Source: Fischerella thermalis PCC 7521
GTDB lineage: Bacteria > Cyanobacteriota > Cyanobacteriia > Cyanobacteriales > Nostocaceae
Assembly: GCF_000317225.1 (NCBI RefSeq)
Contig: NZ_AJLL01000100.1
Location: forward strand, 1 to 64,000
DNA length: 64,000 nucleotides
Direction: 5' to 3'
This document shows positions 45,673 through 49,180 of the stretch, in pieces. A model generated the notes under the pieces. It was not told the origin of the DNA. It worked only from the letters and a program-made list of their open reading frames with translations, and made no database searches. Positions within the stretch are counted from its first letter, which is position 1. The number at the start of each line of letters is the position of its first letter. The position numbers and the translations under genes were made by a program.

Positions 45673-45747
45673 GGCGATGGAGCTCGCCATGACCGCCTTC
45701 CGGTGTTTGCATATTTAACACTTGATAAAAAGGCTGATGGCTCCTAC
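45673..45747 (+). promoter_or_regulatory. Fluoride riboswitch (crcB motif) aptamer
   Basis: GGCGATGGAGCTCGCC (45673-45688) folds as the 5' stem GGCGA/TCGCC; its GGAGC can pair with GCTCC in the 3' segment (45740-45744). GACCGCCTT (45691-45699) and AAGGCTGATGGCTCCTAC (45730-45747) supply the second stem GCCTT/AAGGC and the conserved TGATGGCTCCTAC end. An extra hairpin GTGTT/AACAC lies in the long loop. This matches the crcB-motif consensus as I know it from Bacillus and Thermotoga. The 3' bases CCTACTTCTCCGG then pair imperfectly with CGGAAGAGTAGG (45764-45775), an expression platform overlapping the aptamer end. It lies 93 bases before the antiporter ATG. Confidence 0.9.
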
Positions 45748-45839
45748 TTCTCCGGCTTGCTACGGAAGAGTAGGGCTATTTGTCTTTATCCTTTCGTCAG
45801 CAAGTCACGCTTGCTCCTTAATTGTTTTCAAGCTGCATA

Positions 45840-47471
45840 ATGTTAAAAAGTATTTTGTGGATCTTGCTGATGGGCTTTTTCACTGGGCAGATCGCCAGAC
45901 GGTTACAAGCCCCTGCACTGGTAGGTATGGTTTTGGTAGGAATTATACTGGGGCCTCAAGTTGCCGATGCTATCAGCCCTAACGTATTGGCAGCATCTAG
46001 TGCCCTGCGAGCGATCGCTGTCATGGTAATTTTGATGAAGGCTGGGTTGGGGTTAGACCGAGAAAAATTGATACAGCAAGGAACAGTAGCATTACGATTG
46101 GGCTTTTTGCCTGCGACGTGTGAAGCTTTGCTCATTGCCCTAGCTGCTATGTGGATTTTCAAGTTTGATTTTCCTACGGGACTGTTGTTAGGTTGCATTA
46201 TAGGGGCAGAGTCACCCGCAGTCATTGTACCGGGAATGCTGCGGCTAAAAAGCTTGGGTTGGGGAGTTACTAAGGGGATTCCTGATGCAATTCTTACTGG
46301 CAGCGCTCTGTCAGATGTGTTACTACTGCTAGTGTTTAGTTTGTTGCTGAGCTTTTTAGTACAGGGGGCAACTTCCGCGGTGACATTGCCTTTTGGCTTT
46401 AGCTTAAGCGTGGTGCAACTGCTTCCGATTCAGATTGTTTGTCAGATTGTTTTTGGAGTTGTGCTGGGTTTCGTGACAGCGCGTCTTGTGGTTTTATTAC
46501 TGGCGAAGCAGAACTGGACTCAAAATGCAGTGCAGGATACTTTGGTTGCAGCAAGTTTGGCGTTGTTGCTAGTGGTGGTAGCAGAGAAGTCCCCCTTTTT
46601 CTCTGGCTATCTAGCAGTGATGGCGACGGGATTTTTCTTGATAGAGTTGGATGCTCCTTTAGCACGACGGTTGCGTTCTGGCTTCGACAGCTTGTGGACT
46701 GTAGCAGAAATCTTTTTGTTTGTGTTGCTAGGGGCAAGTATTCAACTACAAGTGTTAGAAAAAACTCTGCTTCCAGGATTGGTGATTTTGGCAATTGGGA
46801 CGCTGATTGGGCGCGCTCTCGGATGGTATTTATCTACATTGGGGAGTAACTGGAATTGGCGAGAGCGGCTGTTTTTGCTACCAGGGAACTCTGCTAAAGC
46901 CACCGTTCAAGCGGCAATTGGGGCGATTCCCTTAACACAGGGTATTCAGGGTGGAGAGACGATTCTAGCGATCGCTGCTTTATCTATCTTAGTCACTGCG
47001 CCTTTGGGAGCTTGGGCTATCCCCACCTTTGCACCCAAATTGCTAGAACGAGGCGAAGTTGATCCAACCAAGGTAGCGATCGCTCGTCGCCTTGTGCTGC
47101 TAGCCGCAGTTGATACCTCCCCTTTAGCTAGTCAGGTGTTGGCTAAAGCTGCCGATCTTGCTCGTCGTAGTGATGGCGAAGTGATTGTATTACACGTGAT
47201 CCGCACAAATGATCCCAGGGGAGTAGAGCATTTGCGAGAACAATCTCAACGACTTCTAGCAGACATTCGCCATAAGTTCATCACGATCACAGGCTCGGTT
47301 CCAGAGGAAATAATTCGTGTTGCTCAGGAATATCGAGTTGCTGATATTGTCATTGGCAAGCGAGGACATCAACCTTGGGATGAGGTTTTAGTGGGTTCTG
47401 TATCCCAAGCAGTCCTGGAATCAAGTCCAATTCCAGTCATCTTAGTTGAAGATGAGCGTATCCGTAAATAA
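45840..47471 (+). CDS. Cation/proton antiporter with C-terminal universal-stress domain
   Basis: 543 residues from ATG 45840; TTG 45822 is less likely. Residues 1-390 are a CPA2/NhaS-type antiporter of about twelve helices: WILLMGFFTGQIARRLQAPA, LVGMVLVGIILGPQVADAIS, VMVILMKAGLGLDREKL, LLGCIIGAESPAVIVPGML, FLFVLLGASIQLQ. Residues 415-540 are a USP domain: LVLLAAVDTSPLASQVLAKA, EVIVLHVIRTNDPRG and VADIVIGKRGHQPWDEVLVG, SVSQAVLESSPIPVILVED. Fluoride riboswitches are known to control such antiporters; here it would couple proton/cation exchange to fluoride stress. A crcB gene follows on the same strand. Known relatives lack proven transport data for fluoride itself. Confidence 0.9.
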   Translation: MLKSILWILLMGFFTGQIARRLQAPALVGMVLVGIILGPQVADAISPNVLAASSALRAIAVMVILMKAGLGLDREKLIQQGTVALRLGFLPATCEALLIALAAMWIFKFDFPTGLLLGCIIGAESPAVIVPGMLRLKSLGWGVTKGIPDAILTGSALSDVLLLLVFSLLLSFLVQGATSAVTLPFGFSLSVVQLLPIQIVCQIVFGVVLGFVTARLVVLLLAKQNWTQNAVQDTLVAASLALLLVVVAEKSPFFSGYLAVMATGFFLIELDAPLARRLRSGFDSLWTVAEIFLFVLLGASIQLQVLEKTLLPGLVILAIGTLIGRALGWYLSTLGSNWNWRERLFLLPGNSAKATVQAAIGAIPLTQGIQGGETILAIAALSILVTAPLGAWAIPTFAPKLLERGEVDPTKVAIARRLVLLAAVDTSPLASQVLAKAADLARRSDGEVIVLHVIRTNDPRGVEHLREQSQRLLADIRHKFITITGSVPEEIIRVAQEYRVADIVIGKRGHQPWDEVLVGSVSQAVLESSPIPVILVEDERIRK

Positions 47472-47722
47472 CCTAATTTCAGCGTTGCTGAATTTGGTCA
47501 TGAATTGTGTTTGTTTGTCTACATTTTGTAGAGACGTAGCATTGCTACGTCTCTACTACGTCTGTAGGCATTGCTACGTCTCTACTACGTCTGTAGGCAT
47601 TGCTACGTCTCTACTACGTCTGTAGGCATTGCTACGTCTCTACTACGTCTCTACGCATTGCTACGTCCGGTCACAGCCGTAAATTGTAAATTCATATTTT
47701 GATTCAGCAACGCCCTAATTTC
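47472..47722. mobile_element. Complete MITE with TIRs and 9-bp target duplication
   Basis: The direct repeat CCTAATTTC at 47472-47480 and 47714-47722 flanks an element of about 232 bp (47482-47713). Its ends are GCGTTGCTGAATTTGGTCAT and, inverted, GCGTTGCTGAATCAAAATAT, imperfect terminal inverted repeats of about 27 bp. The inside has a GTAGAGACGTAGCATTGCTA palindrome and about 3.5 copies of a 29-bp tandem unit (CTACGTCTGTAGGCATTGCT). No transposase is encoded. It sits between the antiporter gene and crcB. Confidence 0.85.
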
Positions 47723-47737
47723 CTTGAACTACTTACC

Positions 47738-48151
47738 ATGCTGCAAAATCCTGCGTTTCGTACCCCTGTTGGTATCAGTATCGGTGCAATTGCTGGCGCA
47801 CTCTCGCGTTATTATCTCGGTTTGTGGTTTACTCAGCTTTTTGGTACAGAGTTCCCCTACAGCACACTGATTATTAATGTTAGTGGATGTTTTGTCATGG
47901 GTTTTTTTACGACGCTGGCACTGGGACGATTAATCGCGATTCATCCTGATATCCGGCTATTAGTGACCACAGGTTTTTTAGGATCTTATACTACTTTCTC
48001 GACTTATGAGTTAGATACAGCCAAGTTGTTCCAAGAACGCAACTTAGAAGTTGATTTGGTTTACTGGTTGAGTAGTGCTGTTTTGGCACTGTTCAGCCTG
48101 CTGTTAGGGAATGCTCTGGCGGAATTTATCCGGATCAAAGAGGAATCATGA
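47738..48151 (+). CDS. crcB: Fluoride ion exporter CrcB/Fluc (first copy)
   Basis: 137 residues from ATG 47738; the TTG at 47699 lies in the MITE. Four membrane helices in the Fluc pattern: GISIGAIAGALSRYYLGLWF, PYSTLIINVSGCFVMGFFTT, RLLVTTGFLGSYTTFSTYEL (the conserved GxLGxxTTFST fluoride-gate motif) and YWLSSAVLALFSLLLGNALA. Dual-topology dimers form a F- channel in the inner membrane. The fluoride riboswitch 2 kb upstream and the antiporter gene between suggest one fluoride-induced operon, although the MITE now separates crcB from the antiporter. It is convergent with DUF190. Confidence 0.93.
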   Translation: MLQNPAFRTPVGISIGAIAGALSRYYLGLWFTQLFGTEFPYSTLIINVSGCFVMGFFTTLALGRLIAIHPDIRLLVTTGFLGSYTTFSTYELDTAKLFQERNLEVDLVYWLSSAVLALFSLLLGNALAEFIRIKEES

Positions 48152-48376: not shown

Positions 48377-48718
48377 TCACTTGGGGATAGTTACAGGCGC
48401 ATGATGAACCACTTTCACTGTATCCTGAACAACAATGCCTCCAGCTACCATTTGTTGTACTATTGGCAAAAAAGAAGCGATCGCCTCTGCTGTATCGATC
48501 ATTGTCACTACCATTGGCAAATCAGACGATAATTCCAAAATTCTGGCAGTATGCAGTTGTTGATTTTTTCCGAAACCTGCAACTCCACCAGTTACAGTAG
48601 CTCCAGCCATACCTCTACGTCGGGCTTCTTCTACTAAAGCAATATAAACAGGTTTTCCATGCCAGTGATCCGACTCGCCAACATAAATTGTCAAACGCTC
48701 TAGGGTATTCATGTTCAT
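48377..48718 (-). CDS. DUF190 (PII-like) protein of the fluoride locus
   Basis: 113 residues from ATG 48718 (MNTLERLTIYVGESDHWHG; an earlier Met at 48733 is possible). A ferredoxin-like PII-type fold: TIYVGESDHWHGKPVYIALV, RRRGMAGATVTGGVAGFG, ELSSDLPMVVTMIDTAEAI and GGIVVQDTVKVVHH. DUF190 proteins are found next to crcB in many bacteria and are thought to be trimeric sensors; their ligand is not known to me. It follows the second crcB on the same strand with a gap of about 80 bases, so the two are probably one unit. Confidence 0.85.
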   Translation of the reverse strand: MNMNTLERLTIYVGESDHWHGKPVYIALVEEARRRGMAGATVTGGVAGFGKNQQLHTARILELSSDLPMVVTMIDTAEAIASFLPIVQQMVAGGIVVQDTVKVVHHAPVTIPK

Positions 48719-48796
48719 CCCTCGCTCAATCAATTTTGAATTTTTTAGGAGAAAAATACTGAGTTAAGATTTTAAGGCTTTACAGATATTCACAAA

Positions 48797-49180
48797 CTAA
48801 AGCATCTTTGCTAAGAATATTCCCAACTCTATACTAATAAACCCTAAGAGCGGGCTACCAAACCAGTAAAGTAGTGCTGCTTGATAGTCTCTTGTCCGTA
48901 ATAAATTTGAGGTGTCTAAAGCATAGGTTGAAAAAGTGGTGTATGAACCCAAAAAGCCTACTGAAACTAACATTTGTACCGCTAAAGGAATAGATAGCTT
49001 TGATGCGATGGTAGTAAAAAAACCCATCAAAAAAGCACCTGTAAGATTGATGAATAAAGTTCCATAAGGAAATCCAATCCCCAACCAACGTCCAAAAAAT
49101 AAGGTGAGGTAATAGCGACTCAAAGCGCCTGGAACTGCTCCCAAGATAATGACAAGGGGAACATAAGTTGCAGAGTGCAT
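48797..49180 (-). CDS. crcB: Fluoride ion exporter CrcB/Fluc (second copy)
   Basis: 127 residues with four membrane helices: VIILGAVPGALSRYYLTLFF, PYGTLFINLTGAFLMGFFTT, VQMLVSVGFLGSYTTFSTYA (gate motif kept) and WFGSPLLGFISIELGIFLAK. It is clearly paralogous to the copy at 47738, sharing GALSRYYL, FPY-TL-IN and GFLGSYTTFSTY-LDT. Two Fluc proteins can form homodimers each or a heterodimer; which applies here is unknown. No fluoride riboswitch was found in the 600 bases upstream on this strand, in contrast to the plus-strand unit. Confidence 0.92.
   Translation of the reverse strand: MHSATYVPLVIILGAVPGALSRYYLTLFFGRWLGIGFPYGTLFINLTGAFLMGFFTTIASKLSIPLAVQMLVSVGFLGSYTTFSTYALDTSNLLRTRDYQAALLYWFGSPLLGFISIELGIFLAKML

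Follow-up and report, generated by a model that had tools for sequence, protein, structure and literature searches.

Fluoride transport is known for two kinds of protein, Fluc/CrcB and CLC-F. Genes of both exporters occur behind the RF01734 fluoride aptamer, also named the crcB motif, and the aptamer has other partners as well. According to a review (PMC11139923), Na+/H+ antiporters rank directly behind the exporters among the classes linked to fluoride riboswitches, and Fusobacteria are one of the groups in which species often have no known exporter. Weinberg et al. 2010 (PMC2864571) associate genes for K+ or Cl- transport with the crcB motif, and another report (PMC13104614) describes a benzoate transporter that contributes to the fluoride tolerance of Pseudomonas putida in the absence of CrcB. 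Universal stress proteins (USPs) also appear in this company: the FRM operon of Enterobacter cloacae, ppaC-uspA-eno-gpmA-crcB-orf5249, places a USP and crcB under a fluoride riboswitch, the USP being a separate protein (PMC5533749).

The locus described here lies in a 64,000-nucleotide stretch of Fischerella thermalis PCC 7521 (the window) and combines such an aptamer with an antiporter to which a USP domain is fused. Like the antiporters of Baker et al. 2012, cited in the review (PMC11139923), it stands behind a fluoride aptamer; it would differ from that set in the USP fusion, in residues E124 and S158, and in its near exclusion with CrcB among cyanobacteria. It also belongs to a different family from Fluc/CrcB and CLC-F, which adjoin it in some loci, and any F- transport of its own is hypothetical. 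The leader resembles other RF01734 riboswitches in its above-cutoff sequence and structure and in a post-aptamer helix (H1) that overlaps the aptamer's 3′ end; it differs in having a further conserved helix (H3) in competition with H1, followed in many relatives by a helix (H2) that masks the start. The association between fluoride riboswitches and antiporters is already known from the review (PMC11139923), and the first-pass annotation, which called fluoride control of such antiporters established in other bacteria, is right as far as association goes. The pairing counts, the competing helices and the near exclusion with CrcB go beyond it, and a literature search conducted mostly outside subscription papers found no paper on CrcB exclusion or on the H1/H3 platform. 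Taken together, the locus probably carries an ON riboswitch with H1/H3 competition, controlling an antiporter for which we infer a role in fluoride resistance and which would often replace CrcB.

The aptamer and its gene neighbourhood

A cmscan search of the whole window returned RF01734 as the sole Rfam match reaching its cutoff, above the family's gathering score (Table 1), and a permissive rescan of 44-50 kb, up to E 1, returned no Rfam match besides it. The first-pass annotation had recognized a crcB-motif aptamer from the stem GGCGA/TCGCC and TGATGGCTCCTAC, both of which are present, and the covariance score agrees with that assignment. Its spacing of 93 bases to the antiporter is likewise correct, with the motif ending at 45747. 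A real fluoride-riboswitch sequence upstream of the antiporter-USP gene is therefore confirmed at the level of sequence, the fluoride response itself being predicted, and the arrangement is kept in many relatives.

Table 1. Positions of features in and beside the riboswitch-controlled locus of the window.
Feature	Position	Strand	Basis
Fluoride riboswitch aptamer RF01734	45664..45753	+	47.0 bits, cutoff 34, E 6.8e-10
Helix H1, 45743-45754 with 45763-45774; uses aptamer 3′ strand	45743..45774	+	Local fold -15.5 kcal/mol, 11 pairs
Helix H3, 45754-45769 with 45789-45806; H1 competitor	45754..45806	+	Duplex -19.9 kcal/mol
Weak pre-start helix, 45809-45813 with 45829-45833; position of relatives' H2 start mask	45809..45833	+	Folding
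Antiporter-USP gene, 543 aa from ATG 45840; in-frame TTG at 45822	45840..47471	+	Pfam domains, NHA2/SLC9B2 closest solved sequence
USP domain, residues 420-536, motif G-x2-G-x9-G-S	47097..47447	+	Usp domain match and motif
Tandem repeat in the antiporter-crcB interval, unit 29 bp, 4.4 copies	47539..47667	+	
CrcB (Fluc) gene, antiporter's strand; ATG at 47738	47699..48151	+	
DUF190 gene (COG1993)	48377..48733	-	
Second CrcB (Fluc) gene, strand opposite to antiporter	48797..49180	-	

Downstream lie two crcB genes and one for DUF190, none of them mentioned in the first-pass annotation. The first CrcB reading frame begins 228 bases 3′ of the antiporter on the same strand, and the antiporter in the window still shares its locus with crcB; DUF190 and the second CrcB gene come next on the opposite strand, and the rescan of 44-50 kb, up to E 1, detected no aptamer upstream of the second.

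Elsewhere in the same genome, contig C88 holds two further likely fluoride aptamers. One, at C88:110422-110496 (L002/L233), scores 35.8 bits, above cutoff, upstream of a 132-aa HEAT-repeat protein that opens with two CPxCG-like knots. The other, at C88:112321-112395 on the minus strand (L003), scores 27.2 bits, below cutoff, and faces a short USP reading frame divergent from an enolase gene. A CrcB remnant in two pieces with internal stops (C88:114623-115057) lies about 2 kb from this sub-cutoff aptamer. The genome has no close paralogue of the antiporter, the next match being at 28% identity.

An NHA2-like antiporter with an altered ion site

The first-pass annotation gave the antiporter a universal-stress domain of its own, and both domains are indeed matched in one protein: Na_H_Exchanger (PF00999) at residues 13-390 (E 3.8e-32, 112 bits against a cutoff of 26.2) and Usp over the segment listed in Table 1 (E 1.9e-20). 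The closest solved sequence is NHA2/SLC9B2 (7p1i, E 1.9e-42), followed by NhaP (3.8e-17). An AlphaFold2 model with mean pLDDT 78 and pTM 0.65 resembles both, and fold comparison is split, with NHA2 narrowly heading the Foldseek rows and NhaP placed above it by VIA-align (Z 37.6 vs 30.3). The nearest named relatives occur in cyanobacteria such as Chlorogloeopsis, Nostoc and Scytonema.

Six residues, E95, E124, S158, D159, R325 and K353, are invariant in an 18-row orthologue alignment, and E95, R325 and K353 align with the E, R and K of NHA2. The D-D pair of the NHA/SLC9B ion site, D278-D279 in NHA2, is absent, all 18 rows having S158-D159. NHA2 has V at the position of E124 and D at that of S158, as do three distant homologues from Clostridia and Fusobacteria (Peptoclostridium, Ilyobacter and Acetoanaerobium; 33-38% identity), which lack the USP domain and each lie behind an above-cutoff fluoride aptamer. 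Relative to NHA2, the window protein thus has V replaced by E, the first D of the pair replaced by S, and a C-terminal USP domain added. ATP-binding USPs carry the motif G-x2-G-x9-G(S/T), which the window's domain presents as G506, G509 and G519-S520, with departures in 3 of the 18 rows. Judged by its residues, the protein resembles NHA2/SLC9B, has an altered ion site and retains the ATP motif of its USP domain, and this domain is a plausible nucleotide sensor.

These residues bear on what the protein transports. It may well be a Na+(K+)/H+ exchanger that keeps pH and ions in balance during fluoride stress without handling F-, a reading rated somewhat better than even. Its closest solved relatives are Na+/H+ exchangers, and the charged site formed by E95, E124, D159, R325 and K353, invariant in the 18 rows, is the kind usual in cation exchange; pH homeostasis is also the published view (PMC11139923). 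That the antiporter is instead a fluoride exporter working by F-/H+ exchange, a third class beside Fluc and CLC-F built on the SLC9B fold, is unlikely. The two invariant ion-site changes that set it apart from NHA2 and the three Clostridia and Fusobacteria homologues would suit such a function, yet two carboxylates are left in the site and favour cations, and those homologues retain the D-D pair although they too lie behind fluoride aptamers. Cation/H+ exchange, which has slightly the better part of the probability, is accordingly considered more likely than direct F-/H+ exchange, which is doubtful.

Competing helices in the leader RNA

Leader sequences were compared in a set of 67, which reduced to 62 distinct platforms. 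Alignments were made for 31 of the 35 leaders of one group (the L-group, leaving out L116, L135, L136 and L046) and for 21 Nostoc-type leaders; six leaders belonging to neither group were left out of the alignments. Opening of the start region was assessed in 58 of the 62, those without H1 (L104, L110, L116 and L118) being set aside.

The imperfect stem that the first-pass annotation placed over the aptamer's 3′ end exists in the window with 11 of 12 pairs. This is H1, in which CCUAC of the aptamer pairs with a downstream GUAGG; because it takes the 3′ strand of the aptamer, H1 and the folded aptamer are mutually exclusive. H3 pairs the loop and 3′ arm of H1 with a stretch further 3′, and since it is built from these parts H1 and H3 also exclude each other. 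Paired cells in H1 amount to 90.6% in the 31 leaders and 97.4% in the 21 others, with little or no covariation. H3 reaches 97.2% paired cells in the 31 aligned leaders, with 35 cells changed on both sides and 0 of 500 shuffles as high, and pairing falls to 20-42% when the alignment is shifted by 1-3 columns. In 50 of 62 leaders its duplex energy is better than that of dinucleotide shuffles (p 0.05), and in 60 of 62 it is better than the swapped-partner mean. H3 covaries less in the Nostoc-type leaders, where 90.0% of its cells are paired; shuffles scored as high in 19 of 500 cases by pairing and in 31 of 500 by covariation.

In the 21 Nostoc-type leaders both the Shine-Dalgarno stretch and the AUG lie within H2, which is 96.8% paired with 16 cells changed on both sides and 0 of 500 shuffles as high. 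A simple duplex test of H2 is weak across the whole set, giving p 0.05 in 19 of 62 leaders and energies better than the swapped-partner mean in 55 of 62. The minimum-energy fold of one leader, L117, contains H3 and H2 at once, so H3 need not exclude H2 in that leader's group.

Under the preferred reading, the switch would be turned on by fluoride. Without the ligand, the 3′ end of the aptamer would go into H1 and expression would be low; with Mg-fluoride bound, the aptamer would retain its 3′ strand, H1 would be blocked and H3 would form; for most relatives the prediction is that this exposes the ribosome start region. The product so controlled would be an NHA2/SLC9B-type H+-coupled antiporter with a C-terminal USP domain of the nucleotide-binding type. 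In 52 of 58 leaders the start region of the bound state is predicted to be more open than the mean of the shuffles; against this explanation, H1 hardly covaries, p 0.05 is reached in just 32 of 58, and for the window leader (ddG -1.0) and its congener (-2.2) no start opening on fluoride binding is predicted. Start masking, one of the two outcomes anticipated by the first-pass annotation, is thus predicted in most relatives and not for the window's own leader, whose start mask looks decayed in the folding predictions. The same two leaders rule out one start-masking mechanism for every leader. H1 and H3 are common to the leaders, and the final control step in the window may be another than start masking.

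The other anticipated outcome, a terminator at the stem, would have the window's switch act by ending transcription at H1, not on translation, and is a possible if tentative reading for this leader, in which start masking is unpredicted. GCTATTTGTCTTTA follows H1 in the window, whose leader is one of the 10 of 58 with at least 5 T within 8 nt directly after H1, and predicted terminators overlap many crcB motifs according to Weinberg et al. 2010 (PMC2864571). A terminator scan of the window, on the other hand, did not list the H1 stem, and the T-rich stretch is missing in 48 of 58 leaders while H3 is retained. H1 as an ordinary terminator was rejected for the leaders generally on these grounds and stays a rival for the window.

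Aptamer, antiporter and CrcB across genomes

Sixty related genomes, the window's included, and a 386-genome sample of the phylum were surveyed, neither set being hand-chosen. An aptamer match at E 0.001 occurs in 24 of the 60 relatives, above cutoff in 22, and the antiporter in 27, two of them (G024, G030) with a broken copy. Above-cutoff aptamers are present in 19 of the 27 antiporter genomes vs 3 of the 33 others (p 1.6e-6). The gene downstream of the 26 above-cutoff aptamers is the antiporter in 17 cases, an antiporter remnant in two (G030, G031), CrcB in four, CLC-F in two (335 and 588 nt further 3′) and a HEAT-repeat gene in one. In G031 (C32, L230) the aptamer is followed by a reading frame joining 49 antiporter residues to a DUF2254 protein; by its sequence this is a disrupted antiporter that either decayed or was put to new use.

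In 49 of 80 named antiporter loci the aptamer's 3′ motif lies within 400 nt, and the other 31 have no motif. Above-cutoff aptamers number one among the 31 genomes of the motif-less loci, preceding CLC-F, and a second of these genomes has a sub-cutoff match of 24.2 bits; the antiporter therefore works without fluoride control too, a point against the preferred reading. Many of the 31 loci belong to marine genera (Okeania, Trichodesmium, Richelia).

Antiporter and CrcB nearly exclude each other. The 60 relatives comprise 5 genomes with both, 22 with the antiporter only, 30 with CrcB only and 3 with neither (Fisher p 8.9e-9), or 5/20/30/5 without the broken antiporters of G024 and G030. In the same order of classes, the window's family alone gives 5/11/18/2 (p 4e-4) and 24 other families of the order, at one genome each, 0/11/12/1 (p 9.6e-6). 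The trend is weaker in the phylum sample, where the antiporter occurs in 60 genomes, CrcB in 251, both in 19 (one of them, G307, with a weak CrcB match at E 1.1e-6) and neither in 94; CrcB is found in 19 of 60 antiporter genomes vs 232 of 326 others (p 1.4e-8). Among genomes of the named loci CrcB occurs in 6 of 50, a biased subset that leaves out 30, and these 30 include nine aptamer-bearing loci in which CrcB adjoins the antiporter, so that adding the nine gives at least 15 of 59. In those nine the CrcB match starts 13-66 nt after the antiporter, and in 5 of the 8 co-present pairs with listed coordinates the two are no more than about 650 nt apart.

The exclusion might be a by-product of shared ancestry and habitat with no functional meaning, which is improbable. 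On a tree of the CLC domain for 53 genomes (7 of 60 being left out for want of a CLC, for another CLC class or for a cut-off locus), there are 17 changes in the antiporter and 16 in CrcB. With all branches, 17 independent pairs gave 0 changed the same way, 14 opposite and 3 without difference in 121 of 200 pairings (p 1.2e-4); the other patterns shown had 13 opposite and at most one the same way, the latter in 6 of 200 pairings. Remnants of one system also lie beside the other: a short antiporter remnant separates the aptamer from CrcB in G021 (residues 1-22) and in G046 (residues 478-522), another precedes CLC-F in G030, and CrcB remnants lie near an intact antiporter in G027, G060 and G069. 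The exclusion holds in the one-per-family subset as well. For shared ancestry it can be said that the tree derives from a single gene, that well-supported branches alone leave 7 pairs, 0 the same way and about 5 opposite, with p 0.0625, and that habitat matters, the motif-less loci being largely in the marine genera.

That the antiporter usually occurs where CrcB is missing suggests a similar protective job, and in these cyanobacteria it would be a main fluoride-resistance transporter, often replacing CrcB/Fluc. In 18 of the 22 antiporter-only genomes, one of them (G024) with a broken antiporter, CrcB is missing and no CLC scores in the CLC-F class. CLC genes were considered and rejected as the missing exporters. 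Five genes of the CLC-F kind were found among the 60 relatives (G008, G023, G026, G027, G030), one with a CLC fluoride/proton antiporter as its best PDB match and four that are 75-87% identical to that gene. Another five CLCs, similar in size, share 25-28% identity with it, and one of them, when checked, matched ClcA best; for the remaining CLCs, which include a truncated one in G050, sorting was by score alone.

These counts return to the question of substrate. A homeostatic cation exchanger would be rarer beside CrcB, since CrcB takes away the acid-fluoride load for which the antiporter is needed, and the operon-like arrangement of antiporter and CrcB in some loci accords with it; a helper should accompany an exporter, yet the 18 genomes above have no recognized one. 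That CrcB, CLC-F and the antiporter replace one another behind one kind of aptamer, and the exclusion itself, favour F- as the substrate. The co-occurrence of antiporter and CrcB in 5 of the 60 relatives and in 19 of the 60 antiporter genomes of the phylum, with CrcB following the antiporter in some loci, also fits a helper role. The far-reaching proposal that USP-fused SLC9B-type antiporters form a third bacterial class of fluoride exporter, F-/H+ exchangers repeatedly swapped with CrcB in cyanobacteria and fluoride-switched through H1 and H3, with the Fusobacteria relatives behind aptamers doing the same, is correspondingly given a low chance. If antiporters stand in for CrcB in cyanobacteria, the pH-control view becomes testable, and fluoride handling would be explained in many cyanobacteria in which no recognized exporter was found.

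The antiporter also occurs outside cyanobacteria. Copies at 76-77% identity in 3 of 61 genomes around a methanotroph look, by sequence, like gene transfer. Four gamma-proteobacterial methanotroph loci were compared (L104, L110, L118, L109), three of which have the aptamer motif; H1 is unpredicted in those three. Plasmid records matching the antiporter number 797, mostly from Klebsiella and E. coli, and 13 of the 25 matches listed cover just about residues 249-406, a partial homologue. Five of the 25 listed plasmid-borne records were examined. In the cyanobacterium Picosynechococcus PCC 7002 the antiporter gene is on plasmid pAQ7, downstream of a fluoride aptamer. On a plasmid of Peptoclostridium acidaminophilum (L236), the fluoride aptamer is followed by a CBS-domain gene and then the antiporter, a separate CBS protein standing where cyanobacteria have the fused USP.
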